Positions 1,527 through 21,296 of a stretch of 64,000 nucleotides of DNA are shown here, in pieces. The notes under the pieces are model-generated. The model saw only the letters and a list, made by a program, of their open reading frames with translations. It ran no database searches and had not been told where the DNA came from. The DNA lies in the NCBI GenBank assembly GCA_947184155.2, contig CAMXCT020001538.1, positions 82,359-146,358 on the forward strand. The letters run 5' to 3'. Source of the stretch: Cladocopium goreaui (taxonomy: Eukaryota; Sar; Dinophyceae; Suessiales; Symbiodiniaceae). Made by a program: the position numbers and the translations under genes. Within the stretch, counting starts at the first letter, position 1; every line of letters starts with the position of its first letter.

Positions 1527-2204
1527 CTGTCCTACGGACGACTCCCAAATTGCAAAGCTTGAAAAATCCATTGCGGTCAACCCAAAAGTGTCAGTTGCTG
1601 CCACAGCTGGCATGCCTCAGAAAGCCTCTTGAAGCTCTCCTGGCGTCGATGGTCGGAGGTGAAGATGGTGAAGTGATACTGAAATGAGGCCAAGATGATC
1701 AAGATTTGAATGGAAAAACCAAGGGATGATCTGATGCTGGCTTATGCCTTTTTTCATGTGTTTCTATTTGTGGTACCCTCTGATAAACTAACACTTCGCT
1801 GAAATCGCCATATTTTTGATAGGTATCTCAGAGTATCTCATCCATAACTGGGTCATTTTCCAGCTCGCTTGGTTTACAGGAGCTCGATTTCTGCCGAATC
1901 CTGCTATGATATTGGACTCACAGTGGAATCATCAAAAACTGGCTGGTCCGGGTTCCTAGTTCATGGTTATCATCGCTCATATAGCTGGATAGTGTATAAA
2001 TGTGTATAATTATTAGTATAACATGAGTATAACTATAACTCCCTAAAAAAATCCAGTGATATTTCACCAGGAATCTAAAATAGTGACATAGTCTGTGTAA
2101 AAAAACTAGCCCTGTTACTACCTGGATCTCCTAGATCCAACAAATAAACAGGGCAAAAGCAAATAACTACGTTATTGGCATGGTGCCCCGACAATTCTTG
2201 GGGC
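1527..2204. other. no gene recognised
   Basis: No exon-like open segment with supporting splice signals was seen. A relic of the foldback family (TACCCTCTGATAAACTAACA) lies near 1771-1790. Confidence 0.45.
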
Positions 2205-2226
2205 GCCCTAAAAAAAACCGTTCGAA
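2205..2226 (+). repeat. 22-bp direct repeat, left copy
   Basis: Reads GCCCTA, then A to a total of eight, then CCGTTCGAA. An identical 22-base segment in the same orientation is at 20492-20513, just past the stop codon of the transposase-like module. The two copies bracket the whole + strand module array. They may be ends, or internal parts of ends, of a mobile element; no flanking target duplication was established. Confidence 0.6.
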
Positions 2227-2906
2227 AGCGTATTCACATCAAAATGCGTAATTTGATATGGTTTTGATGTTGATGAAATCCTGGAAATTCCTGGAACATA
2301 TATGTGGTATTTGCACATGATCCTCTCTTCCCAGCGGGTAACCTTTTCATGTCGCCGCCACAGGCTTTGCCTCTTCTCATCCTCTTCTCATAGCATCATG
2401 AGAAACTATGGTAGTTGAACGGCAATGGTCTTTGATCTAAACTTTGTGACTTTGCCATGGGCCAATGGTACTCAAGACCCTTCCACTACATGAGGAATAA
2501 TATTCACTAAATTTTCAAGATTATCAATAGGTCGTTCAATAAAAGATCTGATCACATTGATCACATTTTTTTATTTTTCATCCTTGCCATTCCTTGCCAC
2601 TTTCATGGTGGGAACTTCGTTGTGCTGCTGCTCATGGATTTGATGGAGCACCAGCGCTTCAGGTGCCACCTCCCTTTGACGATTTGATGACATAATCTCA
2701 AAATCTCAAAACCATGATGTCAGTTGGAATAGCCCAGATTGTGCTACAAGTTCTCACCACATGCCAACATTGCCAGCTAAGTTGAGCTGAACAAAACATT
2801 TGCCATGACAAAGCTGTATCGATCTCACTCACTGTTCATACGCTCGTCCTGCAGCATGATTTTGGCTGAGAAACCCAAAAGGTTTTGTGCCTGACTCCAA
2901 ACAGGG

Positions 2907-3330
2907 ATGACCGAAGAAGTCCTATCACCCGCAGTTCCCAAAGGAGTTTGCCCTCCAGAGGCTGAGGAGAAAAAGGGAAGTGGAAAGGGATTGGCATTGA
3001 TATGGGATAACATTCCAGAGGTCCGACAACGATTGAGAACTGGTCACAATCTGTTGGTCAACTTCGATGCCAAGTTGAACCAGTCCACCAACACCACAGT
3101 CGAAAGAACCATGGGCAATGTGAAAGTGAACTCTTTTGTGCTTTCACCCGTTTGCCAAATGATGCATGTGAAGGGTCTGACCAACATAGATGACTTGGAG
3201 AGTGAAGTGAAGCAAATGTTTTCTGTGTGTGGCGTGCTCGCCAACACAAAGACTATCATAGCACAAGCTTGGGCGATTCGCTACTTGATTGGGGTGGTCA
3301 AGGGATCCATAAAGGCCGAGAAAGGCGACA
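2907..3330 (+). CDS. exon of unrecognised protein at the 5' side of the module array
   Basis: A 169-codon open segment starts with ATG at 2907 and has a soluble helical look (IWDNIPEVRQRL, LESEVKQMFSVCGVLANT). Its end is uncertain: the lysine-rich tail after about 3330 may already be intron. I do not recognise the family. Its place ahead of the basic module, on the same strand and with a similar spacing of exons, suggests it is the first part of the same transcription unit. No signal peptide or membrane helix is seen. Confidence 0.45.
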
Positions 3331-3962
3331 AAAAAAAAGTCAAGAGATGCCCCAAGGACAGGATTTGTTTCAAAGTATATATTTCAAAGTTCTGTATTAT
3401 AGATTGTTTCCTATGATTCTTTTCATTGTTTGTATATATTTGAGAGTGTCCCACATGGTTCTAATGTGTGATTTTATGGCTCTATTTTCCTGGAACCCAT
3501 GGCGGGCCAACGTCCTGCACAGGACCCCAAAGTGCAAGGTCTTCTCCTTGATTTAGGTCTCCTGGTGCGCAAGGACAGATGCAGCTTCAGGTTTTGGGCC
3601 CAAGGTGATTCAAAGTAAGGGCTCAACATGAGCAAGGCCTCAATAGACCTTGTGAATTCTACTTCAAGTGTTCTTTAAACATCTTTAAACCTGTCACGCC
3701 AAATGTGCACCTTTTGATCCAGCTGGAACTTATTCTATATCAGGTTTTTTTTTTGATATGTTCAATGTCATTCAAAATGACTTCACCACACGGCTTCAGG
3801 AGAATGGGCAATTGGGGGTGGTTCCCAGAGAGGCCAGAGGCAGAGTGCTGCAGGACTCTTATGCGTGAAGTGTGGGACCAAAGTCATACAGTTTATTTAA
3901 TTAACCAATTATTCACAAAGAACAGCAATTGTGGAAAAAAACGCCGGTTGCAAAAACTTACA

Positions 3963-4405
3963 GATCCATGTACCAATGATTCCAACCATTGGCCACTACC
4001 ATATACCAAACCTTTCGTCAACAGACCCTGGACAGGACAAGCAGAAGAGCGAGGAGCAGCCGCTTCAAGATGAAGCACAGCGTGCAGCAGCGGATGGGGT
4101 GCTCACCCAACTGCGTCCTGATGAGGCTGAACCTCTGCCTACAGAAACGCCAAACCAAGATTTGAACCCAAAGTTTGATCGAGCTGTGGAGCCGGAGCCT
4201 CCAAAACCTTGTGAGCCTACTGCTGCTGCTGTTCAGCCTGGCAGTTCAAACCAACTGGTTGCAGCTGCAACACCAGTGGAGGAGACAGCCTCCAGTTCCC
4301 TCGCTGCATCAACACCAGTGGATGACAAGGCCAAGGCCCTCATTCCATCAGAGTCGACCAAAGTTGGGAAGGATCTCGTGGTCGAGATTCAGGACGGGTA
4401 CCACT
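3963..4405 (+). CDS. exon: Glu/Pro/Ala-rich low-complexity linker
   Basis: The open reading segment is rich in E, P, A and Q (for example EEQPLQDEAQRAAADG, EPEPPKPCEPTAAAVQ) and ends in VEIQDGYH before a stop at 4405-4407. An AG at 3961-3962 (TTACAG) could be the acceptor. The composition fits a disordered linker, and no catalytic motif is present. It is likely part of the same protein as the basic region at 5.7-6.8 kb. Exact borders are uncertain. Confidence 0.45.
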
Positions 4406-5276
4406 GACAAACATGAGCTCAAAATAATATATCCCAAAGATGTTGGAAACTTGGGGACACCGCATGCTCTAAACTCTCTAAAGCCTGCATATTTCATACA
4501 TTGTTTTTGAGATTGTGTTGAGTTGCCAAAGATATCCAAAAACATGATGTCTCGAATCAGTCTGTGATCTTTCATGGGTCAAGTCTCCCAGGACTCGCAG
4601 GATGATCTTCAACTGACCGTCTCATCCAAGAAGGATGGTGGTGGGGGTAGTGCGAAACATGCGAAACTCATGTTTATATTTCAGAGAATGCAGCAAAACG
4701 TCCAAAAATAGAAAACCCTATGATGCTATTATAATCCATGATGCCAATCTGGTTCATTACCCCAATGGTATAGTCTGAATGCCTTTGATGCACCAACTGC
4801 CCGGGGATCCTTTCAATGTCCATGTGCAGGACGCTGATGGGCCACCTTCGACAGCTGGAGGTTCCTGCGGCAAGGGCAGGAAAGAAATGGAGGATGAACT
4901 CGCTTTCTTGTTTTCCTGTCTCAGAGTGTGGCTCGCATCTGCATTCTCACTGCTTTTCTTTGGGTTGTATCTTTTTTGTTTGGGGTTGACTATGAATATG
5001 ATTTTGTTTGGTCTTGACCGAGTCAGTTACACAATTCGGTTCCTTATCCCATTAGGGGTCAAGATCCTGAGTATGACAAAACTCTGGTTAGTCCATGTTA
5101 GTCCACCCAAGGCAAGGGCATTGTACCCCGACGTCGTTGGCATCTAGAGCAGCCAGCGCTTCGAAAAGAAGCTTGGCTGAGCCCACATGGAAGCCAGTGT
5201 AATGAATACAATACAGTTCCATTACAATTTCAATCAAATTGCTTGGCATCACGTTTGTCTTACAACATAAGGTCAA

Positions 5277-5500
5277 GTGGAGCCTGTATTGGTCCTTGAT
5301 AGCTTGCCCTATGGAATGGATATGGACGAAACACTGCAGCCAGAGGTTTCGCCATCTGAGTGGATACACACTGCTCCCATCCAAGATCTCCTGGCCAGAG
5401 GTGATCCATCTCCAGAGCCAGCTGCTGACGCCAAGGGCCCAACTGCACCTGCAACCGAAGTGGCTTCAGAGGACACTGGTGGTTTGGGGGTGGGCCACTA
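5277..5500 (+). CDS. exon: acidic linker segment
   Basis: Reads as a short acidic, proline-containing peptide (YGMDMDETLQPEVSPSEW, IQDLLARGDPSPEPA, TEVASEDTGG). It lies between the linker exon at 4 kb and the basic exon at 5.67 kb on the same strand. No domain is recognised. Borders are approximate. Confidence 0.4.
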
Positions 5501-5671
5501 TATACATGCATGCCACTACTCACGAGAATGCTCAAGATATCCTTTTGAAAAAGAACAGTGTCTACTATCACAGCGATATGATGCGATATGGCAATAAAAT
5601 ACAACATTCTTTATAACTATAAGGGGTATGGATCACTGGCATTATGACCTGCCAAACCCGGTTTTCACAAA

Positions 5672-6800
5672 AGGAGAAACCAAACTTTGAAGAACTTCCA
5701 ACTGAAGACTACATCACTCGCCGGCAGCAGTTGCAGATGAAGGCAGAAAACGCAGAGACTAGAGGTAAAAGGGGCAAGGCGAAGGCGAAAGCTAAGGGAA
5801 AGAAGGCTGTAGAGGATGATGATGACAATGGTGAGGATGCCGCGACTGAATCCAAGACCAATGCTGAGCCAGCTGAAGATCCTTCTCAACCACCTGCCAA
5901 AAGGCAGCGCAAGTCAGCAGCCAAGAGCGCAGCCAAGAGCGCAGCCAAGAAGACGGCAGAAACTGAGGAGCCCACCAAAGATGGGGATGGGTCAGTGGAT
6001 CTTGAGAAACCTGAAGCTGAAGTTCCAAAGGAACCCAAGCAGAGAAAGCCTCGCAAGACCAAAGCTGAGCAAGAGGCATCTGCAGGATCCAAGCCTGCTC
6101 CCAAGAAACGTGCCCGTGGAGCCAAGAAGCAATGCGAAGCTCCTGCTGAACCTTCAGCAGAAGAGGCAGCAGAAGCATCAGCAGAGGTGTCAGCAGAGGC
6201 ATCAGGGGAGGTGTCAGCAGAGGCATCAGTGGAGGTGTCTGCAGAGGCATCAGGGGAGGTGTCAGCAGAGGCATCAGGGGAGGTTCCAGCGGCTGTTGAG
6301 GGTGGGGACAAGACTGGTAAGGATGAGGATGGTCAGCTTGAGGCAAAGGAGGCAGTGCTACCAAAGGCAAAGGGCAGAGCAAAGGCAAAGGCAAAGGCAG
6401 GAGCGGCAAAGGCGAAGGCAAAGGCAGGAGTGGTGAAGGCTACAGGGAAGGCGAAAGCCAAAGCAGGGGCAGGGAAGAGAGCCTTTGTTCGCGATGATGA
6501 TCCTAGTGGAGACCCTCTTCCTCCTAGCAGTGATTTCCCTGATCGCGATGCATTCCACGAGATGGTTGTGCAGGATGTTCTCAAGTGTTTGAGAACTTGT
6601 GAAGGGGCTGGGACTTTGAACGTCAAAGGTCGGCATGCACATGCCCACGACCACGATGAGTTTGAGATGCGTGATGGCTTGGCCTGGAACATCTACTGGT
6701 CCAGGAAGTGTGCATCGGTGAAGAAGGGAAAGCAGCAGGTTAACTACTTCTCTCGCAGCACCCCATGCTGTGGAACCAACATTGTCCTCGCACGACATTG
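5672..6800 (+). CDS. basic KAKAK-rich region followed by a YWSR-type domain
   Basis: One long open exon beginning after AAAAG at about 5668-5671. Its first part has runs such as RGKAKAKAKGKK, SAAKSAAKSAAKK and KGRAKAKAKAKAG, typical of disordered histone-H1-like DNA/RNA-binding tails, interrupted by a 12-residue acidic repeat (SAEASGEVSAEA, about 6170-6290). The last 100 codons are a compact segment with FHEMVVQDVLKC, WNIYWSRKCASV and QVNYFSRSTPCC. From memory, a YWSR...YFS segment of this kind recurs in dinoflagellate predicted proteins, usually upstream of the FYAG module. That matches the order here. Function unknown; nucleic-acid binding is inference from composition. Confidence 0.6.
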
Positions 6801-8940
6801 GGTCTGAATCTTATTTGTTCCAGTTCAAATTTGAATATATACTTAAGGTACTCTATGTTTGCACGTTTACATCGATGGCTCTCTGGTTCATGTATACTGA
6901 TCGAATACTTTACCCAAGCATTTACGCAGCAGCATGCTACTTACGGGCCCTATCAATATACCATGATACCTCAATACAATTCTTCCAGGTAACGCAGTAT
7001 CTATCTCTTCCAGAGCCCCGTGATCCAGATTGCCGACTTCTTCGCCATGTCAAGATTGTGTTGGGGTCGGCCCATTGTGAAGCACTTAGCCGCTTCAAAC
7101 AACCAGTGATTGCGCAGACTTTGGACTGAATCGTAGGGCCCTCCGCATTGGTTGAATCTTTGGGCGTTTCTCAGCGATGTTTGATTTGACATGATGGCCT
7201 CATAAAGTGCCAAGACCTATCCTGTGAAAAATGTGAAGCTCACAAACAGTGTATTAAACATGCGCATTTATAAACATTATCCCTTCGATAGTTCACGTTG
7301 CTTCAGTTTTAGACCCCATTGTGATATGTCACATGTAAATTTGAGTTTTTTATATAGAATGGGACTGTTCATGACATTTCATAACAGGCAGTACGCAGGA
7401 GGCTGTCATATTTTGGATTATGATAGCAGTCCGGCAATTGATCATGCTGATCTTGCTGGAAGATTCGAAATCTAGGTAAAAAAAAACATCAAAGTAGCCC
7501 AGATGGCTTCTTGGTGCCAATCCCGTGTTTCAAACTTCAGCCCTGCTTGGGGTAAAGGCGGTGCTGGACATGGAAAAAAATGAGCTGTTCTGTTGAATTG
7601 AAATTTTGCGAGAAGTTCCTGTTCAATCATATGCTGTACGGGTTTCAGTCCCAAACAATTTATCAATGATGCTTTCATGTGTCCAATGATGGGAGAACCG
7701 CAACAAATTTATTTGTGGTAATGGCAACAAATTTGTTTCAGTGTCTGTGTTATTATTGTTGCTTTCCCACGCAGGTGCTGAAACATGGGTCGACGGGCTG
7801 GCCTCCACTCAGTGGAGGGCGCTGTGATGGATCGTACTCCTGGCTGGTGTTGAGCATGAGGCAATTCCTTAGACATTGGCAACTCAGCATGGTTGAACTG
7901 AAAGATCCTGAAAACCACGAAAAGATCTCGAAGTTTCAGACTTCACATCTAAAACAAAAAATAATCAAATTATAGGTTCTTTAGAGCTGGATTCTTCAAG
8001 TTTGGGTTCCTGCAGTTTCGGTGCGTGAGATTGCGTTGCATCCACTAGTTCCCAAGTCAGTTGGAGACATGAAACTCCAAAAGAATTTCTTTCATGTTGA
8101 AACCATTTGAAACCTATAGTTCAATTGAATGAACCTATGGGCATTTTCTGGTACTAGCGCTTCCCCGAATACAAAATACTGCAAGACTCGGGATCCAATT
8201 CTTGAAGTGGTCATTGCAGCTGTCAACTCAAAGGGCCAAAAGCTCTTGCCGTTTTTCCAAGCGGCATGCCGGTGAATATCAATTCCTTGGTAGCCAAGTT
8301 GGAGGCTTTGTCAGCCCCGAAAGCATCTTGGTTTGCAACATAACTTGGGGAAGATTTGGGATATAGCTATAGCCATGAAAGATGGAAAGATTGTATTGTA
8401 AGATCTATAAAGATTATATATATAGATCGAATTAATCATAAGAGTCGATGATGTAAATGGTAAAGATTGATATTGGGTGTTGGTCCTTCCTACTCCCTCA
8501 TTGATTGATGAATCTTTTGCAAAATGAATTGAACTTGTTATCGCAGATGTTCCATTACTAGTATATATGCCTTCTACAGCTGAGGCATGGATTATAGGTA
8601 TCAGCCAATCGCACTGCATGACTTATTCGAGATATACAGCAGTGTGACCTAGATCACTCGAATGCTCAAGGCATTTGTTGCTGCGGTGGTCCTCGTCTAC
8701 TTCTCCGCGAATCTTGGAAATCTATGTCAGGAGAATTGCATGGATGTTGATTGGGGATGGTTGGTAGCTTTCAAATTGGACACCACACCCAGTATCGACC
8801 ACTCACAGCAATGTTGCTTCATGTTGTTTCATGTTGCTTTTTTAAAGTGTCTTTTGTTGTGCAATGTGAATCACCATCATGAGCCCTTCGAAAAATATTT
8901 GTGGGCCACTTGCTTTCAAAATAGGAAAGTGATACGACAG
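6801..8940. other. no gene recognised between modules
   Basis: Mostly AT-rich non-coding sequence. The stretch 7010-7130 could hold a short exon but the frame cannot be decided. Nothing else is supported up to the acceptor at 8939-8940. Confidence 0.4.
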
Positions 8941-10783
8941 GAAACACAAAAGCTGCATCTACAAGACATCCCCCGTCAAATGACAACGCTGGAGGAGCTC
9001 AACTTTGTGGAGTTCTACGCTGGAGTTGGGAATGTTTGGCAGGCTGTTTCTGAATCAGGATATCCTGCTGCCCGTGTTGACGTTCAGTATCATGAAACTC
9101 CTTCCAATCACCTGAAACAAAATCCAATGGACATACTTTCGAGTGCAGGATTTGCGAATTTTGGCTGCACCAATCCTAACATGGTTTATGTGAACTTTAA
9201 CATCACACGGAATCAATCCTTGTGTGGTATCGATGTTGCCAATGAAAACCATGTTGACCAAGGAAAAATACTGCAGTACAGAGAAATGTTTTGATTATCC
9301 CATCGGGTTTTTCAAGTACACATCGATACAAACCTTAGAGCCAATGGTTTTAATTTCCAATCCTAAGGACTGCTATATGGCTGATACTGCAATGCCGGGA
9401 GTCAGACTTCTTCAGCATCCTTGCAGTGGTTTGCAGCTCATGGTCAGCAGTGAATGTAGGCACCTCAAAACGATCCATCGCATTGCCGTGTGGTGACACG
9501 CGCCTGTCTTTCGTTTGCGAAGCAAACACCATGTGTGCTAGGAATTTTGGATGCAACCTATGTTCTTCACAACAGCTTTCAATGCAATTGACTTAAAACT
9601 TGAATTGCAGCTTTTCTTATTGATTTTGAATCTTTCTTTTCAATAATTTTCAAGACGCATTGAACGACATGTGTGAAAATGAGATAAGTTGGCAAAACAA
9701 ACAGCAACCCAAACCATTCTATATCCCAGCCCTCAGGACTGTGCTTTTGTGTGTTCTCATCACGGCGATGGGAGGTGCGTTTCTGATTGAACAGCCGGGC
9801 AGTAGCTACATGGAGTTCTATGACAAAATGAGATGGCTATATGAGCATATCCCTGTGATTTGTCCAAACATCAAATTGATAGGTGTGTTGCGGGGTCTAG
9901 CACAGGCTGTCAAGTTGTCACCCAGACGTGTAGCAGTAAACCAAGTGACATGATCGGGACACATAGGATGCATCATCCTCTCAGCCGGCCTAGGTATACA
10001 AATGCTGCTGGTGGATGGCGCACTATGGCCATGGTTCCCCTAAGAGGCACAAGGCTTTCACCAATACGAAGGTGGCAGGAAAGTTCAACCGTGGGAAGTT
10101 AAACCTCAAAAAGTTTCAGGAAACCCAGAAAGAGGAGGACAAACCAACCACTCGATATGTTGATTCGAAAGGGCGAGTACGATACAAGGGGTTGAAATCC
10201 CTCAAGCGAACACAGACACTTTGTCTTATAGATTCATGCAACATTTTGTGATTTGCAATGGTCCTTGCAAACTGTCCTGTGTTTCATGCTTGAATTGTAC
10301 GGGTATCCACTGGAACTTGTTTGGAAAGACTTTGACCACCTTCACAAGTTGATGTGCCATACTAAAACAACCAAATCTTTCTATAGAGATTGTGATCCAA
10401 ACTATGGAATTTCAAATGCACTTTATGACATCGAGTTCAAAGTATATGCTTTGAAGATGGTGGAGGAACTTCAATATCGAATGATTGATGTGTACTTTGA
10501 ATCTTGTTTTGTTGAGTTCCTTGATTTCTGGTCGCCCAGGATCTACCCTAGACGCTTTGGATTAGCCACGGCGCAGCTGCTGCCACAGCTGAAGAGCACT
10601 GGTGAAGGTGTTCCGGCCGTCACCTCGCAGCCGGACGGCCCTGCAATCTTCAACAGTATGAGTTGGCATTCTGATATGTGTTGGGATGAAGTGAGATTCA
10701 AATCCTTGCTGGTGTACCTAAGGGGAAATACATCCCTCAGGCTTCCAGCTGAGTGGAAAGCTGTCTTCCCAACCAAAATTTGA
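8941..10783 (+). CDS. FYAG-type DNA-methyltransferase-like module
   Basis: Five exons fit with matching phases: 8941-9155, 9368-9541, 9737-9854, 9994-10214 and 10540 to about 10780. Domain signs in order: NFVEFYAGVGNVWQAV (glycine loop like motif I of cytosine-C5 methyltransferases) with ARVDV after it; FFSILAVVCSSWSAVN and GTSKRS; GGAFLIEQPGSS (resembles the ENP segment of the same superfamily); WWMAHYGHGSPKRH; and a C-terminal helix pair ending LVYLRG...LRLPAEWKAVFP. This family is, as I recall, very abundant in Symbiodiniaceae. Introns 1, 2 and 4 use GA donors and intron 3 uses GT. The usual catalytic PC dipeptide is replaced by VCSSW, so activity is uncertain. The methyltransferase fold is inference; the family match is firmer. 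Confidence 0.75.
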
Positions 10784-11217
10784 AGTTTCAGGGGCGCCAT
10801 AAGATGAACGATTCCTAAAGGTCTCTGAATTGAACCCAAATGCTGGAACTATGGTCAGCAAATATAATTGAAAAGCTGTTGTTCTGGGGTATTTTCAGAA
10901 ATTGAGACTGAAACTTCACGAAATAATCCGAAATCATTTCTAGAACAAGGGCCCCCAGTTGATAAAGTAAATAATTTGGTTGGATTCCTGTCATTATTTG
11001 TCATTTTTAGATGGTTTCATGAAAACCTTTGGTGGAATAAAGAAAGAACATGGGAAACAAAAGACCAATTCTATAGTTCTCCAGAAGCTTAGCCAGGTCT
11101 TGGGTCTTGGGTCATCATCGACATGTGAGCTGAAACGACCACAAAATGGCTCCAGAGTATTCCTATATAGTTATGATTGTGTTTTTTTTGTTTTTTTTTG
11201 TGATTTAAGATATTTTG
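10784..11217. other. no gene recognised
   Basis: Non-coding by inspection. It separates the methyltransferase-like module from a repeat array. Confidence 0.4.
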
Positions 11218-11412
11218 GGATGCCTATACGTTCAGACCCGTTCGAACCCGTTCAAAACCATTCGAACCCATTCGAACCCGTTCAAATGCGTAAAATCCTA
11301 ACCCGAAAATGCAATATTTTTGCGTACCCGTACCCGTTCAAACCCGTACCCGTTCGAAATGCGTTCAATAAGCGTTCAAAATGCGTTCAAATACCGTTCG
11401 CAACCCGTTCGG
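11218..11412. repeat. degenerate array of CCGTTCGAAC / CGTTCAAA motifs
   Basis: Many diverged copies of ACCCGTTCGAA, CCCATTCGAA, CCCGTTCAAA and ATGCGTTCAAA follow each other. CGTTCGAAC contains a palindrome (TTCGAA). The same core, CCGTTCGAA, ends both 22-bp direct repeats at 2205 and 20492, so the array may belong to the same element. Confidence 0.75.
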
Positions 11413-12049
11413 AAATGCAATAAAATATTGCCTTTTGGTTCAATTCTCAATGTCATTTTTTTCCTCAAATTTTGGGTATGTTCCAGGGCCTAGGGAATCG
11501 GATTTGGTGCCCATGCCCCTGGCCATGCTGGTTTGACCAGACCACCTGCTGCTTTTCGTAGAGATCTTTGGCGGTTTTAGCCGCCTTGGAAGGTCGAATT
11601 GAGGATGCCAATTGATGCATGCATCCAAACATGGATCCACGCCGGGATACTTCAGCTACAAATGCTGTAAAACGGTGAAAAGTTGGAAGAATGTGCTGTC
11701 TATATGCTAGCATTGGATGATACGCAATGTGGGTATCTCAAAGAAGTCACTTTCTTATGTGATAAAGAGCCAACGGTCTTCCTCAAAACATGGAGAGAAA
11801 CACCTTGTTCGATCAGAAGTTTCAGCGACAATTCAATTTATATATGATTTTCCAGTTGGTTCCCAGCTGTGCTCCATGACTTGTGGGAAGCATAATTGTT
11901 TGACACCATCCTTTTCGACTTTTTGCTGGTTTTTGGAATCATGGTTCCCAAATTCTGAGAAAAAAGTCATGACAACAAGCTTGCATTACTTTGTGCAACT
12001 GATGCGCAAAAGGCCCAAATTACCAGTGTCAACACCAGGGTAGAAACTG

Positions 12050-12785
12050 GTTTGTGGTGGTGGAAATGTCCACCTCCCTCAAATCAAGTCAATGGAGTTG
12101 CAGCGAGCTCCAGAAAGGAGCACAAGTTTGCGCGGATATGGCTGGGATGGATTTGGCAATGGATCCAGCAACTTTAACCGAGGAAGAGCTCTTGAAAACC
12201 ATTCAGGACCCCATCTTGGGCATGGTGTCGGATTATTGTTGGATTTTGGGGCATCTTCATCAAACCACTAACACCTTAAGTACCAACAGTACAGACTGAG
12301 TTTCTACTGACCAGTTGGACCAGGAAGCCAAAAAGTTGTTGCAGACTGGTGACGCCCCCGCAGCTCAAACAGCACTATACATGAGTTGAGCGTATAGAGA
12401 GAGAGGTGTCAGGTCATTTGGTCTGGAAACTATATAGATGGACAGGACATGCTGTACTATACATTCGATATACTTGTTAATTGATATATGTCCAATATGC
12501 TGATAGCTATAATTGATCTTGACATGAAGCTGAGGACAGGCGCTTTCTGGTGCCAAAACAAGAGCTGCAGGAGGACATTGCCACTGCTGCCACACTTCCA
12601 GCTGAATCATGGTAGCAATCATAGGTTATACAAAAACTAAAAAGCAGTTCTGGGGGTTCACGCAATAGTTTTTTGATCTAGCCCCCAGTCCAAGTGCCCA
12701 AGCATGACACCAAGGAGCAATCTGAAATCGATGCAATGATGGCCGCTCCAGTCCAAGCAGAAGACACCTTGGAAACGCAGGAGAT
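12050..12785 (+). CDS. linker exons (short, acidic) of the module array
   Basis: Several short exon-like segments on the + strand: about 12054-12230 (MDLAMDPATLTEEELLKTI), 12298-12370 (DQLDQEAKKLLQTGDAP), 12541-12612 (VPKQELQEDIATAATLPA) and 12688-12780 (KHDTKEQSEIDAMMAAP). Each is open, acidic and repetitive in character and lies between stop-rich segments. They look like exons of one disordered linker. Borders are approximate and no domain is recognised. Confidence 0.4.
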
Positions 12786-12898
12786 TTGTTTTCAATTGCA
12801 TTACCATGTGGCAATCACCCATGTTTCCTGGTATTTGGGCCCCGGGTGTTTCAATTGTTATTTTCTACATAGCCTGAAAGAATAGTCAGAATAGTCCA

Positions 12899-13470
12899 GT
12901 GATGTCCAGCACGCTCTGGGAGGAGCAGCGTGTTGAAGCAGCGGAGAAGCCTGAGCAAAAATCTCAGCAAGTGCCTGTGCAGAAACGCAGCAGCCCACCA
13001 CCAACTCCCAGCAAGAAGTCCCCGGAGACGAAGGTTCCCAAGACCCAGGAGCTCACAGTACCCACAGAGGCTCCTCCTAAGATGCCTGCTGTTACTGCTG
13101 TAGCTACTCCTCAGAATGCCCCGGCACCGACCATGCCGACACCTGCACTTGCAGACCCGGCTGCCCTGTTTGCGTCTTTCATGGCTTTCATGCAGCAACA
13201 GCGGCAAGTCCAGCAGCAGCCCATGTTTGCAGCACCACCGGCACCACCTTGCAGTTCCTTCCTGACACCTGAGGCAAAGCATGCTGTGGCATCCCCGCTT
13301 ACCAGAGAAGCAACTCGGGATACACCACCTTCTGAGGCTGCTGAAGCTGAGGCTAATGATGCTAATGAAGAAGATGATGAAGGGAGGGAAGAGGAACAAG
13401 AGGGTGATGGAGCCGATGTGATCGTCATGCCTCATGGTTCCAAAGTTTCCTGGTTCAAGTATCATTCACA
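12899..13470 (+). CDS. proline/alanine- and acidic-rich linker exon
   Basis: A 190-codon open segment that is strongly P/A/Q-rich, then acidic: SSPPPTPSKKSPE, MPAVTAVATPQNAPAP, FMAFMQQQRQVQQQPMF, AEANDANEEDDEGREEE. Composition is that of a disordered spacer. It directly precedes the charged helical module and, as I recall, a P/A-rich segment usually sits at this place in related dinoflagellate proteins. The frame is well supported by length; ends are uncertain. Confidence 0.6.
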
Positions 13471-13558
13471 CCACATGCATGATCATATTGTATCACGAGT
13501 GCATGTATGATAGACTTCAAGTTCTGCATACAGACATGAAGTACTTAGCATTTTGCAG

Positions 13559-14530
13559 TCCAGACCCATCCTAACCAATCTGAGGTTATCAGTCACGATG
13601 CACTGCGAATGAGACTACGAAGACTCTGTGAAGTCAAGCCCAAGAGCAAGAAGTGTCACGTTGATGTCAAGACACATGACATGTGGAAAAACGGAGGTGA
13701 ATCCCGAGAATGGCTTGAGATTGCCTTGACCGAGACACTTGACAAGATGGGTCCATCTCAAAAGGGGCAGCACAAGAAGCTCCGTGTTTCTTGGATTGAC
13801 CAATACAGGAGAGCTATAATTCATCCTACATGGCACCATAATAATGAATAATAATGATAGAATTACGGCCCCAATTGAAGGATTGACTCACAACCATGGT
13901 CCCACTGCTATATTTCAGGCTGAATTTGCTGCTCGCGTCATCATTGTTCGGGAGCGCATGGAAACCAAAGAGATGGAAGTCAATGGTGAATGGCTCACCG
14001 AACAAAAGATGAAAAAAAGTGGTGACTACTCCGCGTAGTTAGGCTGCATTCAGAGCTGATTTAGACCATATAATTATAGTTTTCAAGATAAGAAAGGCTA
14101 TCAAGAACTGGTGTTCCCAGCGTTTATTGTTTATAATTCTATGCCCTTCCTCCCAGCGTTTATTGTTTATAATTCTATGCCCTTCCACATCAAGTCTGGT
14201 CTCGCTCAGGGACGCCATCAAGTCGATCGTCCAGTACTGCGAGCGATTTCCAGCTGCCCTCGTACGGCCAGGGGTGGGGAAGTGGTGAGAATGGTAAATC
14301 ACCCAATAAAAGTTGTAAAAGCGTATATGGTTTATGCAAAATGTTTATGCCAGTGAACTATAATGAACTTGATCTGGAATCAAAGCTTTGGTATATCTTT
14401 GGGCGCAACTCCTGCTTCAGGTCTTGGAAATACAACAACCGGGTCAAAGAGTACTTTGTCGAAACCAACACGAAGCAAACGGTGCGTCAGACCGAGATGC
14501 AGAAACGAACTGAAGCTTCTGACCAGGGAG
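13559..14530 (+). CDS. charged helical module (LRRLCEVKP type), dinoflagellate family
   Basis: Exons about 13559-13785, 13919-14034, 14210-14271 and 14419-14530. Reading order: ALRMRLRRLCEVKPKSK, VKTHDMWKNGGESREWLE, then RVIIVRERMETKEMEVNG and GEWLTEQKMKKSG, then IKSIVQYCERFPAALVRP, then KYNNRVKEYFVETNT. From memory this pattern (RRL..., K...W, EGWYTE-like, eyFV) matches a large dinoflagellate-only family of unknown function that often follows the FYAG module. The splice from 14034 to 14210 uses GT-AG and completes an Ala codon. No enzyme motif is seen; the basic helices could bind nucleic acid, which is inference. Confidence 0.6.
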
Positions 14531-14679
14531 AACCATGGCAGCACTATAGTCGTCAAACTTGTCATCAAAGACCTGCTTTCCTCGGTTTTGCCATGGGGTG
14601 CCGGATGGTTGAACAAATGTTGAACAATAGATATCATAATCTTAACTCTTTGTACATGGTGGATAAACATATATAGCCA

Positions 14680-15370
14680 TTTCCAGCCCACATGCTTATA
14701 CATTCTGAGGTACAGGAGCTTTGTGAACCTATTCATGCTCCTGGTGGACCCCTGCAACTTGTTGACGAAACTGGCATGACTCCGGAGCCAGAAAAGATGG
14801 GAGACAAGGCCCTGTGAATGTTTAAATCCAATCATGGAGTGCCCCAAAGTGAAAACAACTACGCTTGGGATAGGCGCATGATTGTTGATACGAAATCTGT
14901 CTGGGAATTATCCGGAAATTGCGCAGGTCTTGCCAGACTTGGTCAAGTTCATGGATAACGTCCACCAAAAGATGATGACGGTGCACAGGATGAATGGCCA
15001 GCTAGAGATTGAAGCTGGTGAGCTTCCTATGTCAAAAGAGTTTTTCCACTGCATTAGTTCCCAAACCCTGTAAACACAATTATAAACACGGATCCAAAAT
15101 ACTTGTAATAAAAGAACATCATTGCATGGCAAACTATATTCAAAACTATCAAGAGATATCCAATCCAATCCTGTGGGTTTGCTGTTCGCTTTGGCCTAGT
15201 TTGCAGACAGAGCTGACCCACATCAACGACCGCCTCACCGAGAGCTTCAAATTGCTTGCAGGGCTCAAGGCGGAGATCTCTTTGATGGATGAAGGTGCTG
15301 ACATCAGTCCTCAGTTGCCAGGCAGCATTGATAGCATGGATCGATGTGCCACGTCTAAAGTCCATTGATG
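14680..15370 (+). CDS. helical linker exons after the charged module
   Basis: Three short exon-like segments: about 14690-14817 (HSEVQELCEPIHAPGG, TGMTPEPEKMGDKAL), 14925-15030 (VLPDLVKFMDNVHQKMM) and 15207-15350 (TELTHINDRLTESFKLLAG). Each starts after an AG. They look amphipathic and coiled-coil-like. No family is recognised beyond their position in the array. Confidence 0.45.
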
Positions 15371-15486
15371 TTAGCGGCTCAAAGTCATGGGACATCACCG
15401 CAAAATATTTTAACTTACCATGAATGCACCAAGTCACTGAAAAAACCCAATCAATTTTGAACAATGATGCACTAGTGACTTGACAA

Positions 15487-15732
15487 ATGGTGGGATTGGG
15501 GGCTTGCAGAATTCAATCACGTTTGAGTCAAAAACGCGCTGCCTCTTTTCATATGGTGGACTTCATGGATGTCGAACCGCATGATGATGAAAGCTTGTGG
15601 CTACTGGAACTCATCCAGCACAACCGTGAGGCACTTTTGGGTGGGTGGCCCCTCTTGACCTATGATATTCTAGTCTATAATGATACTTGGAGTCAGGTCT
15701 CATTCGAAACACAAAGCAGTCTCCAGCGGTAG
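15487..15732 (+). CDS. possible exon, unrecognised
   Basis: An open segment containing FHMVDFMDVEPHDDESLW and LLELIQHNREALLGGW on the + strand between the helical linkers and the nuclease-like module. Composition is exon-like but no domain is recognised. The end overlaps intron-like sequence. Confidence 0.3.
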   Translation: MVGLGACRIQSRLSQKRAASFHMVDFMDVEPHDDESLWLLELIQHNREALLGGWPLLTYDILVYNDTWSQVSFETQSSLQR

Positions 15733-15809
15733 GCCAAGCCAGCGGTGATGATGAAGCCCCCAACCTTTCCTGAGGACCGCTGCCACAAATACTCACAAGT
15801 TGATCAGAA

Positions 15810-16440
15810 ATGCTCACCACATTTTTGGGGGATGGATGCATTCGACAGGACCCCTCTGAACCACAATGTGATGTGACCCTGGGCCTGGATGACAACCTTC
15901 GAAAATTAGATCGGACGTTTGAATGCTTTAGCAAAATCAAAGGTGACCCTACGTTAGAACTTTGGCTCCCCAAGAAAAGTAGCTTGCCTGGTTTGGTAGT
16001 CAAACATACGATGGAGACTGTCGACAAGATTCTTGAAAAGCAGTGGCCAGCAGTCTTCAAGTTTGGTTTCACCCATTGTCCACATTTCCGATTTTGGAAC
16101 AACAAATTCGGTTATGCTGTGGACAAGCACCAAAAGTGGCAAATGATGTGCGTACTTTTCGCATCTCATGAAAGCACTGGTCCAGCATTTTTGGAAGCGT
16201 CGTTGATTCAGAAATACAAAGGTAACTTGCATTGTTTTATCAATTTTTCTCCATTTGGTTGTTCCCCGAAACTTAGGACTATGGCACAATCATATTAACC
16301 ATATCCATCCATTTCCCCTCACTGGTGCCCTGCCAACTAAGGTAAACCAGGCTGCCGCAACGTATGTGATGGTGGTGAGTCCGTTCAGGACAGTCTGGGA
16401 GGACCGTTCTTTACTTATCTAGTCTACCAGTCGTTTAAGC
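15810..16440 (+). CDS. GIY-YIG-nuclease-like module
   Basis: Exon 1 is open from about 15810 to 16221 and exon 2 runs from 16351 to about 16440; a canonical GT-AG intron joins them and completes a Gly codon. Key segments: VFKFGFTHCPHFRFW (compare Y-I-G-x-T...R of GIY-YIG domains), GYAVDKHQKWQMMCVLF, GPAFLEASLIQKYKGC (a Glu in the helix where the catalytic Glu sits) and RNVCDGGESVQ. From memory the family occurs in many dinoflagellate proteins. Assignment to GIY-YIG rests on motif spacing, with F replacing Y, so nuclease activity is inference. Upstream about 40 codons (DNLRKLDRTFECFSKIKG) are an unrecognised helix. It lies between the charged module and the transposase-like module. Confidence 0.6.
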
Positions 16441-16540
16441 GACCTAGCCACAGTGCCACAACAATTCGATCCAGAGCTATAATAGCTGGTGGTTAAGTCT
16501 GAAACTTGCACCTGTCAAGTATAATTCATTTTGAGAGCAT

Positions 16541-18000
16541 ATGCAACTCCAAAATGATGAAAACGACCTACCTGCAACACCTACTGTTTCATCATGTTTT
16601 CCCGAGGAATTTCAACATCCATTGCCCCCAATCCCACATCCAAGGTTGAAGGGCAAGATCTCTTTGACCAAAGATTCAGCGAAGAAACCGTCTCTCAACT
16701 GCAAAGCATCGCCCCAGTCCAGATGGGCACATGTCCTGGGCTCAGGTGCGCAGATTTGATTGCCCTGGACCCGCGCTTCAAGTTGCCTGGCTAAAGACAA
16801 TGAGGTATATAAGTTATATAACTAATGTATGAGTTATATAACTATAATGTATGAGTTATATAACTAATATCGAACTCTTCTTTTGTAGTGTGGGTCTCTC
16901 TTTGTTGCTTGATCCATCTTGAATTTTGCGCCACAAGCCCCTGCAACCTAGGCAAGTTTTGGCTGACGCCAAGAAGCTGAAAAGCGGCAAGGAGCCGAAG
17001 GAGAAGCCTCCTAAGACTGAGAGAGCTGTTGATGGCACAGGTGGTACAGGGGCCCCCAAAAAGCCTAAGGTAAAGGCCAAAGCGAAAGCCAAAGAGGCAG
17101 CCAAGTAGATCTTAGATCCATGCACATGAGCATCTCTCTTTTTTAGCTATAGTCTGAAATCTGAAACGCTACTTTGAAGAGTGTACAACTGAGAGGGTGA
17201 CATGTTGAAAAATATATGTTGATGAGATGCCATGCATGCAGTGGATAGCCGGTACAATGGAAGCTGGAACCATTTTGCGAGCAGTGTGATCACTGCAGGT
17301 GGGGGGTGCAAGTCTGGTTAGCCCAAGCCATACCAAATTTGTTTCAAACCGCACTAAACCACAAGTGTTATTAGCTCTCTAGTGCACCTATAGTCCAACA
17401 CTTGTTTCACTTGCAGAATGGGCTAGCTGGAATTGCCAGTGTCGGGAACCTTGCACCGTGCTACGGCATCAGTTGAGCTTAGGGTGCAGGGCTATACTTG
17501 TTGGCTTCCTCCGGCAGTTTTTGATTCTCGCCGCCATCTTGTGACAAAAAATGAATTCTCCACATCTGTGGAACCTTCCCCCCTTTTTAGTAAAGTATAA
17601 AGTTGACACAACTGATCTTGCCAGGTCCCTCTGATGCTGCCGTGGATCTCGCATGGAGCTATGCTCGTGGTGCCACTTGGCCAGAAGCGGGCGCCATGTC
17701 CACGAGCAAAGAGCAAGAATGTTCAAGTATATGCTTCATAGATTGAATTCTGAAAGGATTAGGCTGAAAGTTTTTAGGGTGCCCAATGACCTGCAACACT
17801 TTTCAGATTATCGCTATATAACCCATAATCCGAATTCGGTGAACTTTGTGCTTTCTTTGGCCCCCTGAGGCCCCATGCAATGACATCATCAAGAAAGCCA
17901 CTTCAACTGTGGATTATGACCAACGTGATGGTGCGAAGGCTGCCCCATGTTGCCCTGTTCTTCGTGATTTGTACAATGCCCCGGAGAAACATGCCGTAGC
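16541..18000 (+). CDS. linker exons with a second KAKAK-rich tail
   Basis: Segments in order: 16594-16794 (open; FDQRFSEETVSQLQSIAP), 16926-17108 (KKLKSGKEPKEKPPKTE, PKKPKVKAKAKAKEAAK, stop at 17106-17108), about 17625-17718 (AAVDLAWSYARGATWPEA) and about 17885-18000 (KKATSTVDYDQRDGAK). The KAKAK run matches the style of the basic module at 5.7-6.5 kb. These are probably disordered connecting segments of the same gene or of two neighbouring genes; a stop at 17108 could be a real end if no splice removes it. Borders are approximate. Confidence 0.4.
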
Positions 18001-18115
18001 TAGCCAATGCTAGCCATATTTTTTCCAAAGTACAAATTTTGAAAGCAATATACTAGCTTAAATATGTGTGGTCAAATTCTTTCTCCAATCCATATGGTGT
18101 ATGGACAATGCTGAG

Positions 18116-20378
18116 GAAGACATTGTGTCCAAAGTCTTTGGAAAGCATGGGCTGCGCTTAGATGTGAAGCTCTCCTATGGAAAGGTTGGTCACGATCATG
18201 CATTTCCCTATATCACCCCGGAGTCCTTGGTCCAAACGTTGGAGAGGCACGGCAAACTCTTTAAGCTGCTGGGATTCGGAAGGGAATTTGACACCCTATC
18301 GAAATGTGGAGACAAACTGGAGAAGTTCTGGTCAATGTACCGACCCCTGCACCCAACCAATGAATTCTTCAAGCTGGTTGATCAGGGGGCTATGAGCCCA
18401 CGTTGTTGCGTTCCAATTTACTTTCACGGTGATGAAGGAACCACATACAAGAAGGATGGATGCCTGGTGTTGTCAATACATAGTGGCATTGGTGCTGGAA
18501 CTCTTTTAAGTCAAAAGTTGGGGTCAATTCGGCAAAATGCTCTCGGACGTGATGAGCCCAAATTAAACTTTGCTGGCCACGCTTTTGAAACCCGATTCAT
18601 GCTCGCAGCTATGCTGAGAGTTTCTTGCTGGTGGAAAGGTAAAATTTTCCAACACGTTCTTTTGACAGGCCAATCTGTTTTTCAACCCGCTACATATAGT
18701 TTTTAAACCTGCAGCCCATGGAGTATACCTATATCCTTTGCCAACTAAGGAGGACTACAGGGACAACAGTGAAGCCTATCGCCAACTCTTGGAGCTTGTG
18801 GTGCGGTCGGTGGATGAAGCTTCTAGGCAAGGTGTAAGGCTGAGGAGTGGGGAGATTGTGTACTTGATCCCCTTGGGCAACAAAGGGGACTGGCCCTATC
18901 TTGTGACTCAGCGTGATCAATTCCAAAAAGTTTGCTTTCCCCCAACGTTCACACTTGAAGGACATGATTCTATTAGTGTGTGTGTGTGTGTCTTTGCGGG
19001 CAATTGTTCCCAGTAAGGCAACCAGCGCCAACATGAACCGCAGCTACCGAAATGTACCAAAAGCAGGAAGTTCCAAGAAACCCTGCACAGGTATTTGTCA
19101 TATCTGCCTAGCTGGGAGACCGGGGTTGGACTATGAAGATGTGCATCTCAACTGATTTTGATGTAGACTTTTTTGTTGGAATGGCACCCAAAGGTGCACA
19201 CTGAAATTCACAAGTTGGGCAACATATTTTCAACTTGAAACCTGAAACACATTTTTCCGCCTACTCTCAGGTCTGATAACCCACCATTCCTGCAAACCTA
19301 TGGTATGGAGATTCCGTGGGAAGAGGAGGCTGTCTTCACGCGGGTGTTGATGTGCGAGGCCGACAAGACCTTGTTCCACAAGATAGATTTGTTCCACACT
19401 GTGACACTTGGGGTGGGGAAGTCCTACGCAGCGTCTTGCTTGACTATCCTTCAAGAGCTGATGCCTGGAAGCAGCATTGAGGAACGGCTGAGAGAACTGT
19501 CATCCCTGTTCCTGGAGTATTGCAGCGACCCTGAACTGAATTCATCAATCATGTTGTTCACATTTTCCTGTTTACGGCTTGTTGCTCAAAGAAAACATGT
19601 TTTACCTTGAATTCGGTTTGAAAACCATGAACCTTTTAAGCACTAATTGCCTTTCAGCTTAACTGACCTCAGGAACACGGCAAGACCAGCTATGTACAGA
19701 AAATTGATCGGTCACTCTTGGGATGGATTGGCTCGGCAGAACCGACGGGTGGGTGGAGCAAAGGGGCCCTTACAACAGTTTTGTGCCAGTTCATTGAGCA
19801 TTTGACATCCACGCGAAAACTGGAAGTTTCCCAAAACGAAGTTCTTCGAAGAGTTGTCATTTGACAATATTGGTTCAACTTGTGCTTGTGTTCTGTCTCC
19901 TTTTTCTCAAACAAAGTTTAAGGAAAGGTTTTTCTGTTGTATCACGGATCTGGTGCAACGACCCCAAACAAAACTAAGTAAGGCATCTACTTGTCGGGCT
20001 TTGAACTACTTTATGCGCAAGCTCTATGCTGGGGGATTGTTCATTGAGGGTGACCTGTGTGGCTACATCATTGACGCATCTACTCATTTTCTCAGGGGTT
20101 ACTCTTGGTTGGCGGCAACCTGTCACAACATGGGCCTAGCGAGATTTCCTGCAATGCCTAAGTCGCACATGCTGTTCCACGTTCGGCAGTTCTTGATGGA
20201 GCAATACAATTCATTTGGGTACTTTGAGAACCCCATCGCTGCATCATGTTCATGTGATGAGGACATGATAGGACGTGTCTGTTATCTCACGAGGTGTGTG
20301 TCACCCAAAACGCGAATAAAGAGGTGCTATGAACGCTACCTCACCCAGGTGCTTTTGCTGATGCGCCGTTGCAATTAG
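18116..20378 (+). CDS. FHGDEG-type transposase-like module (D...D(2)H...E)
   Basis: Six exons join with consistent phase: 18116-18619, 18750-18902, 19018-19142, 19271-19526, 19673-19825 and 19983-20378 (stop TAG). Donors are GT, GT, GC, GA and GT; all acceptors are AG followed mostly by G. Motifs in order: VPIYFHGDEGTTYKKDG (Asp codon 18431-18433), LNFAGHAFETRFMLA, EIVYLIPLGNKGDWPYL, KKPCTGICHICLAG (a C-x2-C-x2-C-like knuckle), FHKIDLFHTVTLGVGKS (Asp codon 19386-19388, in a D-x-x-H arrangement), FPAMPKSHMLFHV, and CSCDEDMIGRV (acidic pair 20256-20261). As I recall, this family has very many copies in Symbiodiniaceae and is usually left unnamed. The first Asp after a beta strand, the D(2)H and the late Glu fit the catalytic triad of DDE transposases with a C/D(2)H signature. 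The call is inference from pattern. The copy has no internal stop in the joined frame, so it may be intact. Confidence 0.7.
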
Positions 20379-20491
20379 TTCGCAAAGTGATTTTCACATA
20401 TCTACCAAGGGGAAATGGTGGAGAAAAAGGATCAGAGACAGTGTGGGAAGGAAAAGGGTTACAACACTCAAAATGTTGCTTTTTTGGGTGT

Positions 20492-20513
20492 GCCCTAAAA
20501 AAAACCGTTCGAA
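20492..20513 (+). repeat. 22-bp direct repeat, right copy
   Basis: Identical to 2205-2226 in sequence and orientation (GCCCTA, eight A in all, CCGTTCGAA). It begins 113 bp after the stop codon of the transposase-like module. Confidence 0.6.
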
Positions 20514-20972
20514 CCCAACATTATCCGTACGTACTCGTAATTCCAAGAAAATCATGAGAATAACATAGTTATTCAGAATTGCACTAGAAATTTGCAGGCT
20601 CCAAGGGCTGCAGGTAGTTCAATCCACCCAGTCGTGACATCCAACCAGCTCCTCTGCAGCTGCCTTCCGATCATCTGCCGCCTTGTCCGGGTGGAGCTGC
20701 CTCGCCTGAAACCACGCTGGATTGCGTGGGATGGTCCACCGAATAACGGAAATTTTCCATGGATTGAGTTCATAGAAAAAAAAATAGACCCGTGGAAATA
20801 TGTTTAAAAAAAACTGATTGAGTTCATGGAGTTGCTTTTGTAAAATCTAGCTGCGACTTAACAAAAACAGTTTCATTGAGTTATGTCGACATTATCATGT
20901 GGTCAATCGAGTTCACGAAGAAAGATGAATCTGTCTCTTTCCGAACCAAAGAAAAGTGTTGAACAATTATGA
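20514..20972. other. no gene recognised
   Basis: No supported exon. The forward open segment 20592-20807 is composition noise. Confidence 0.4.
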
Positions 20973-21090
20973 CTGGTTGGTGGTGTTTAAGTTTTAACCA
21001 TCTTGAAAAATATTAGTCAATGGGAAGAATTATCCCATATATGAAATGGAAAAATAAACGCCATGTTCCAAACTCCAAACCACCAACCAG
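20973..21090. mobile_element. CTGGTTGGTGG-family element, copy 3, with 6-bp target duplication
   Basis: Starts CTGGTTGGTGGTGTTTAAG and ends CAAACCACCAACCAG. The hexamer TTATGA lies directly on both sides (20967-20972 and 21091-21096), consistent with a target-site duplication. The interior shares CTTGAAAAATATTAGTCAA with copy 4. Confidence 0.8.
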
Positions 21091-21296
21091 TTATGATATG
21101 CAAAAATTCTACCCCACAACCCCAAAAGCGCAATGGCATCCCCTTCCGTCAGCGCCTTCTGCCGCCACGCCTTTTCGATGCTTCTAGGACTGGCGTCCTG
21201 GATGGGAAGGAAAGAATGGTACTGATGAAAAGCTGAAACTGAGGATGTCACTCAGAGACACTGGAATTCGGATCATTCGGAGACACTAGATCATCT

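Follow-up and report, generated by a model that had tools for sequence, protein, structure and literature searches.

The 64-kb window analyzed here (C1538:82359-146358 of the dinoflagellate Cladocopium goreaui) contains an element that is very probably a giant terminal inverted repeat (TIR) DNA transposon, composed of ordered modules that include putative methyltransferase-like, GIY-YIG-like and DDE-transposase-like parts. In most measured copies, CGTTC motifs are present just inside both ends and again, as an array in phase with the DNA helix, at or very close to the geometric middle. On balance, the observations tend to favor a new superfamily of giant eukaryotic DNA transposons that keeps this array at the midpoint (to within ~0.2-0.4% of the length in most copies) while the arms vary by kilobases, and therefore something in the life cycle would measure or enforce equal arms. 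The window copy was compared with others in the same genome, of 1.166 Gb, in which copies are designated by contig; named protein relatives of its modules are from Symbiodinium and Durusdinium trenchii.

Ends, mobility and module order

The ends of the window copy are defined by an empty site. A query in which 80 bp of its left flank and 97 bp of its right flank were joined, with one TA kept, was searched against the genome and found C1911:36749-36925, which matches the joined flanks at 177/177 bases (100%), has a single TA and lacks the element; the left flank also matches C1911 at 100% (rounded) over 1,501 bp. Because the joined flanks match at every base, C1911 represents an allelic or duplicated contig that lacks the element, and the TA was duplicated on insertion. 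The copy on C63 has an empty site as well (160/160 bases, 99%, single TA), and none was found in the genome for C393 and C601, giving an empty site for two of the four copies tested. A second line of evidence is the pair of copies on C1729 and C2591, whose flanks are unrelated and which have in common an 18.1-kb block, 99.24% identical over 18,168 aligned columns; this block starts with ATACCTGCT and stops with AGCAGGTAT, TA-repeat overhang aside. Alignment of copies for common ends, proposed in the original prediction (an earlier reading of the window from its letters alone), thus gave CCTG...CAGG ends at TA. This inverted end type was first met in the C1729/C2591 pair without a search key, and short, imperfect ends of the form CCTG[C/G]... 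are seen in 13 left and 14 right ends, for which TACCTG was the search key except in the C1729/C2591 pair (left) and in C463/C602 and C1729/C2591 (right, from alignment). C463 and C602 are 99.7% identical as far as a right end of the same kind. The empty sites and the near-identical copy pair show mobility; insertion takes place at TA with TA duplication, and many diverged copies of the element are present in the genome.

These results, together with the colinear copies described below, uphold the claim of the original prediction that the modules form one giant mobile element, with ends at 2121 and 20614. The limits that it gave, 2205-20513, have to be replaced. They coincide with an exact 21-bp direct repeat, CCCTAAAAAAAACCGTTCGAA (22 bp when extended), at 2206-2226 and 20493-20513, which occurs twice in the window at up to 3 mismatches, compared with 0 expected occurrences, and has no exact match in IMG/VR. 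A reading of this repeat as the duplicated target site or the terminus of the element was rejected: the ends located by the copy pair and by the empty site lie ~85-100 bp farther out. A 21-bp target-site duplication considered for C1729, which lies inside a TA microsatellite, is explained as an effect of the TA repeat; TA repeats form the flanks of many copies.

The modules are colinear in five other independent copies: C6070, C1291, C5897, C602 (with its partial twin C463, cut by a contig end) and C2591 (with its near-twin C1729). In this last pair the N-terminal module escaped the window query at the threshold used and was found with the C6070 query. Genome-wide lists, in which the exon matches of one locus were merged, comprise 69 N-terminal loci, a complete list for which all 143 candidates were scored, and at least 133 methyltransferase-like, 149 GIY-YIG-like and 109 DDE-like loci, for which the fractions are lower bounds. 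On the same strand and within 30 kb, the N-terminal module precedes a DDE-like match in at least 35 of its 69 matches; at least 26 of the 133 methyltransferase-like matches listed precede a DDE-like match and at least 37 a GIY-YIG-like match, and at least 53 of the 149 GIY-YIG-like matches listed precede a DDE-like match. Opposite-strand neighbours for these pairs number 0, 2, 0 and 1, respectively, and among the matches listed the wrong order on the same strand was found 0 times for all four pairs. Neighbour distances were 1-30 kb in one count and 0.3-30 kb in the other, the latter scoring a wrong order only where a right-order partner was absent. These counts address the co-occurrence in order that the original prediction had set as its test. 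Many relatives of the methyltransferase-like and GIY-YIG-like modules have no partner among the matches listed, and some of them may truly stand alone. A compact, intron-poor branch (C4557, C3298, C1677, C391, C1176 and others) has a GIY-DDE distance of ~0.8-1.3 kb, compared with 2-3.4 kb elsewhere.

Position of the CGTTC array

Of 12 other measured copies, 10 have a CGTTC ~95-130 bp inward of the left end (the exceptions being C6070 and C601) and 10 have one ~67-126 bp inward of the right end (the exceptions being C602 and C393). The central array follows the methyltransferase-like part, with all cores on one strand and a regular run of mostly ~11-bp spacing; in the window it lies within a block of 81% identity to C6070, the most similar of the blocks longer than 200 bp. 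The phased-motif pattern alone is unspecific, having 431 matches genome-wide as compared with 1,306 for a reversed control. Of 58 clusters from the phased-motif matches listed, 11 are upstream of a DDE-like match, one of which (C375:243112) merely shares the DDE-like match of a nearer cluster; the one N-terminal match that has an array cluster in the wrong order involves this same cluster. Arrays of like appearance at C102:752718, C520:155923 and C603:9569 have no DDE-like or methyltransferase-like match among the matches listed and are possibly cut-down copies.

The offset, defined as the last CGTTC of the regular run minus the element midpoint, was determined for 13 copies of 17.4-22.1 kb. 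It is +40 bp in the window copy, +48 bp in C6070, +34 bp in C1291, +54 bp in C5897, +44 bp in C393, +34 bp in C63, +68 bp in C375, +2 bp in C601, −38 bp in C2591, +16 bp in C1169, +112 bp in C558, −182 bp in C602 and −510 bp in C596, so that the end of the run is within 70 bp of the midpoint in 10 of the 13 copies, all except C558, C602 and C596. In the window copy and C63, both of whose ends are proven by empty sites, the regularly spaced run is centered at +13 and +8 bp, respectively, relative to the midpoint. Arm lengths range from 8.6 to 11.2 kb, the left and right arms are correlated with r = 0.92, and 0 of 200,000 shuffles matched the arms as well as observed (the shuffle takes no account of the relatedness of copies). 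As a fraction of length, the median absolute deviation over the 13 copies is 0.0013 for the array, compared with 0.0082, 0.0067 and 0.0050 for the GIY-YIG-like, N-terminal and DDE-like landmarks.

It should be recognized that the centring was initially a post hoc finding, made in six independent copies (that of the window among them), the ends of the first copies having been fixed before the position of the array was examined. The array center was defined in several ways: by a looser run rule earlier, then by the run center, the center of the whole array, the median and the last CGTTC. For C6070 the strict run gives −112 bp and the other three rules −34, −14 and +48 bp. One overlapping CGTTC (225649) was excluded from C375; C1729 (−81 bp by the looser run rule) was excluded as a near-duplicate of C2591, and C463 as truncated. 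Where rival end motifs were present, the positions chosen were 215953 (not 215611) for the right end of C375; 27573 (not 28735) for the left end of C601; 4830 (not 4306) and 25703 (not 26591) for the left and right ends of C1291; and 4316 (not 4384), 5775 (not 4058) and 7017 (not 870) for the left ends of C602, C2591 and C6070, respectively.

Eight copies were approached prospectively, C375, C596, C393, C601, C558, C63 and C142 from array and DDE coordinates and C1169 from methyltransferase-like and DDE coordinates; the rule was noted beforehand only for the first four, and the numbers were not. The offset is at most 70 bp in C375, C393, C601, C63 and C1169, 112 bp in C558 and 510 bp in C596, and C142 was unmeasurable. 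The left pieces spanned ~1.25 kb on each side of the mirrored position, and ends farther out would escape, as in C142, where the N-terminal module is 26.8 kb upstream of the DDE-like match, suggesting a large insertion in the left arm. In C1169 the first piece, placed by the DDE distance, did not contain the right end, which was located in another piece taken at the mirrored position; the mirror prediction was 345,991 and the actual last base is 345,979. C605 is similar to C375, but its methyltransferase-like match is ~5.9 kb farther from the array, which suggests a later insertion.

Modules, gene structure and enzyme-like motifs

The features of the element are collected in Table 1. All modules of the original prediction are present, on the plus strand and in the order that it gave: the N-terminal basic module, P/A-rich linker, KAKAK/YWSR module, methyltransferase-like exons, charged helical module, GIY-YIG-like module, second lysine-rich linker and DDE-like exons. 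The modules are separated by introns, and comparison of translated copies shows most of them to be under coding constraint, divergence at codon position 3 exceeding that at positions 1 and 2 in 16 of 16 module blocks with matches in copies (totals). It should be noted that the blocks were picked by protein similarity, which somewhat favors a coding result, that the totals count the near-twins C463 and C1729, that the KAKAK block was represented by 38 codons of one copy, and that the test left out the P/A-rich and second lysine-rich linkers.

Table 1. Coordinates of the element and its parts in the 64-kb window
Feature	Position	Strand	Basis or remark
TA target-site duplication, left copy	2119-2120	.	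one TA at empty site
Whole element	2121-20614	+	18,494 bp; empty site C1911:36749-36925 and end type as in copy pair C1729/C2591
Left TIR, CCTG..., short and imperfect	2121-2132	+	comparison of 13 left ends
Left subterminal direct repeat, CGTTC core	2206-2226	+	repeat search; coincides with left limit of original prediction
N-terminal basic module	2907-3362	+	copy comparison, codon-position test; 69 genome matches
P/A-rich linker	4036-4404	+	translation; similar stretch in gene model P0007, by eye
KAKAK-rich module, ending in YWSR domain (6475-6804)	5671-6804	+	translation, copy comparison, codon-position test
Hydrophobic segment (LKAFVAAVVLVYF), possibly membrane-spanning; limits approximate	8653-8730	+	similar in P0007, P0008, P0011, by eye
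Methyltransferase-like exon 1 (FYAGVGN)	8980-9156	+	translation, copy comparison, codon-position test
Methyltransferase-like exon 2 (VCSSWS)	9408-9542	+	translation, copy comparison, codon-position test
Methyltransferase-like exon 3 (IEQPGSS)	9738-9857	+	translation, copy comparison, codon-position test
Methyltransferase-like exon 4 (YG..SPKRH)	9994-10215	+	translation, copy comparison, codon-position test
Exon after methyltransferase-like domain	10534-10773	+	73% DNA identity to C6070; resembles C-terminal part of P0011, P0009, by eye
Central array, 11 CGTTC cores, last six 11 bp apart	11229-11410	+	element midpoint 11367.5
Short conserved module (ADMAGMDLAM)	12129-12236	+	copy comparison, codon-position test
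Charged helical module, part 1	13576-13788	+	copy comparison, codon-position test; also in P0004, P0008
Charged helical module, part 2 (two exons)	14154-14535	+	copy comparison, codon-position test
GIY-YIG-like module (two exons)	15999-16445	+	copy comparison, codon-position test
Second lysine-rich linker	16950-17108	+	translation only
DDE-transposase-like exons (HGDEG, KGDWP, CHIC, DLFH, DEDxIGR)	17873-20378	+	translation, copy comparison, codon-position test
Right subterminal direct repeat, CGTTC core	20493-20513	+	repeat search; coincides with right limit of original prediction
Right TIR, ...CAGG	20603-20614	-	comparison of 14 right ends
TA target-site duplication, right copy	20615-20616	.	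one TA at empty site

One gene spanning the modules is likely. Gene model P0007 follows C6070 colinearly, starting at the N-terminal module and reaching the last methyltransferase-like exon, with the other three exons skipped, and P0008 is colinear with C5897 from the KAKAK module to the DDE end, without the methyltransferase-like exons, the GIY-YIG-like module and part of the DDE-like module; P0002 unites KAKAK, YWSR, GIY-YIG-like and DDE-like parts, and P0004 the charged module and the DDE-like module. As regards the single transcript of the original prediction, these gene models, which come from other data sets, join overlapping subsets of modules in order. As regards the exons that, in its reading, would join in phase, there is a transcript-like homologue of the methyltransferase-like part, P0011, from a 1,252-bp contig, in which the exons of a C5897-like copy follow one another with the introns removed; one DDE junction of the window, tried by eye, gave no simple fit. 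Model P0008 starts inside the element and runs on into an apparently unrelated membrane protein (PF07787, precomputed), through either read-through or model error.

The enzyme labels given to the modules are putative and rest on motifs. In the methyltransferase-like part FYAGVGN, VCSSWS, IEQPGSS and YG..SPKRH succeed one another, an order that we take to match motifs I, IV, VI and VIII of C5 methyltransferases; F.AG, the cysteine of VC[ST].. and EQP are kept in all copies and the VIII-like stretch is kept less. In six independent copies the GIY-YIG-like module retains Y/F-K-x-G-x-T and the R, E and N positions, presumably the motif residues of a GIY-YIG nuclease, and the DDE-like part has HGDEG and KGDWP, followed by later conserved acidic motifs. 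In IMG/VR and GTDB genomes no DDE relatives outside dinoflagellates were confirmed, and in IMG/VR no methyltransferase-like relatives were found, each scan using one short peptide pattern and so being weak. An Rfam scan of the window found nothing. Uninterrupted methyltransferase-like relatives, with open frames of 190-198 amino acids and several of them equal-scoring, occur on C614, C1358, C5998, C996, C113, C1454 and C1724; they have no nearby DDE-like match among the matches listed and are perhaps a separate mobile family.

Mechanism, alternatives and related systems

In the mechanism proposed, a single polyprotein gene would be transcribed across the element and its DDE-like module would be the transposase, cutting at CCTG/CAGG and joining into TA. 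CGTTC may be recognized by one of the DNA-binding modules, and protein on the central array could fold the element in half, its two ends meeting because the arms are equal, in the manner of the central gyrase site of phage Mu; off-center arrays would be selected against because pairing is reduced. The GIY-YIG-like nuclease might help with processing or with cleavage of the target, and the CpG within CGTTC might be marked by the methyltransferase-like domain, which would modulate binding or silencing. A Mu-like role of the array in end pairing is a tentative proposal with a little less than an even chance of being right. The enforcement of equal arms, toward which the evidence inclines slightly, could reflect a fold made at a synapsis site in the middle of the element, within the condensed chromosomes of dinoflagellates, or replication that proceeds in both directions from an origin at the center.

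Several observations weigh against this reading. The arrays of C602 and C596 are off center; the ordinary standard deviation is no smaller for the array (0.0078) than for the DDE-like landmark (0.0074), because C596 dominates the former; and the offset of C1169 becomes ~+86 instead of +16 bp if an outlying CGTTC 70 bp beyond the run is counted. A precision of ~0.2-0.4% is not explained by the Mu model, in which, in the part of the account relied on here, central placing suffices. In addition, none of the gene models P0007, P0008, P0002 and P0004 holds all modules together, and there are in-frame stops in some copies, in C5897 within MT1 and in others where introns are read through. The transposase, nuclease and methyltransferase parts of the original prediction are labelled from motifs, and Pfam at its curated cut-off matched none of the pieces scanned (ten from the window, and homologues) and a PDB profile search with the methyltransferase-like and DDE-like alignments had no match; Pfam up to E 10 likewise had none for the DDE homologues P0003 and P0005, Tc1/mariner transposases included. 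An hhalign comparison of the methyltransferase-like profile with C5 methyltransferases (Escherichia coli Dcm and phage enzymes) fell short of significance (P = 0.086), aligning 15 columns at motif I, with four negative controls at P = 0.11, 0.2, 0.22 and 0.8.

The chief rival explanation of the centring, which we consider unlikely, is that the array is a replication origin from which forks travel outward both ways, near-equal arms finishing together to give a double-stranded or circular intermediate. Iterons resemble phased direct repeats, so that the array has an iteron-like appearance, and in a circularized element it would be diametrically opposite the joined ends; however, no replication protein was recognized among the modules, and TA duplications with single-TA empty sites fit DDE transposition without a replication step. 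Somewhat less probable again is a coincidence of ancestry, in which an ancestral array lay near the middle and the arms drifted little or in parallel. The copies are related and have a common gene order, and the post hoc discovery, the several definitions of the array center and the unremarkable standard deviation would all suit such a coincidence. It is less easily reconciled with arms that vary by more than 2 kb between copies yet are equal within 135 bp inside 10 of 13, with the ~4-6-fold greater scatter of the three other landmarks, by median absolute deviation, in the same copies, or with the prospective copies, of which five of eight are within 70 bp and one more is at 112 bp.

Two further explanations question the element itself. 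That the loci are a dispersed family of large host genes, not mobile, in which the pairs arose by segmental duplication or represent allelic contigs, would fit intron-rich modules under purifying selection and the allelic or duplicated contigs that do occur in the assembly, but it is largely refuted by the empty sites, with their single TA and intact flanks, and is opposed also by the sharp common ends, with unrelated flanks, and the inverted ends common to the copies; we regard it as highly improbable. Nested or abutted elements, two or more in number and with only the DDE part a transposon, are suggested by the methyltransferase-like and GIY-YIG-like relatives that also lack a nearby DDE-like match among the matches listed. 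For the window element this is refuted, its probability being slighter still: the ends flank the whole module set, the empty site lacks that set as one piece, and order and spacing are kept in diverged copies.

The transposon favored here differs from the mobile elements with which it can be compared. Tc1/mariner (IS630) elements also target and duplicate TA, but they are much smaller, their ends differ, and their transposases have no Pfam match here. Maverick/Polinton elements encode a protein-primed DNA polymerase, an integrase and capsid genes, none of which was seen among the modules or matched by Pfam at cut-off in the ten window pieces. En/Spm (CACTA) elements likewise carry subterminal motifs but have ends beginning CACT[A/G], unlike the CCTG...CAGG ends with TA duplication of the present element, which in addition has GIY-YIG-like and methyltransferase-like modules; no tnp2-type transposase was matched by Pfam in the pieces scanned. 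The enlarged En/Spm elements of Chondrus crispus, of 16-20 kb, resemble it as giant TIR DNA transposons of an alga with several coding parts, according to a passage citing them in PMC6431247.

Giant DNA transposons are thus already known, as are methyltransferase-carrying retroelements of this algal group: SymbioLINE-Dnmt and SymbioDIRS-Dnmt3 of Symbiodinium are, in the portion of PMC5890265 relied on here, mobile elements with a cytosine-methyltransferase-type domain, but they have a reverse transcriptase and a Pfam-detectable DNA_methylase and are mostly intronless. The present element, in contrast, is an intron-rich TIR DNA transposon whose methyltransferase-like domain is undetected by Pfam. 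Fungal DNA transposons with a TET/JBP dioxygenase, including KDZ and Plavaka (excerpt of PMC12730594), are similar in carrying a DNA-modification enzyme, the methyltransferase being putative here, and different in the enzyme carried; Pfam detected no sequence relation. In phage Mu, a transposing element, a gyrase site helps the distant ends pair and functions best in the middle, deletions that offset the center delaying development (excerpt of PMC10052514). Pairing is only proposed here, the array carries the motif of the subterminal repeats, there is no evidence of gyrase, and the host is a eukaryote. No report of the modules, ends and centred array in combination was found in the open-licence papers searched.

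Dinoflagellate genomes are large and poorly annotated, and several unannotated modules without a Pfam family would be explained at once as parts of one polyprotein-type transposon, which adds a DNA transposon to the known methyltransferase-type retrotransposons of this algal group. The centred array is a quantitative feature that can be measured in whole genomes; if the arms stay equal, it would be a eukaryotic counterpart of the Mu central site and would offer a way to study how ends that lie far apart come together in chromosomes lacking ordinary nucleosomes.

Several repeats lie outside the element. A ~115-bp interspersed repeat at 515-626, 1411-1525, 21013-21097 and 29363-29469 occurs in both element flanks and at dozens of sites in the genome, and is not part of the element. 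About 1 kb to the right of the element is a 218-bp tandem repeat (~12.6 copies, 21671-24793), with periods of 345 and 439 bp as well, and a 120-bp tandem repeat (~14 copies, 70% match) is found at 36432-38112. An 11-bp tandem repeat (TACATATTATA, ~305 copies) occupies 60642-64000, reaching the end of the window, and accounts for the low GC of that region; several copies of the element sit in TA-rich repeats of the same kind.

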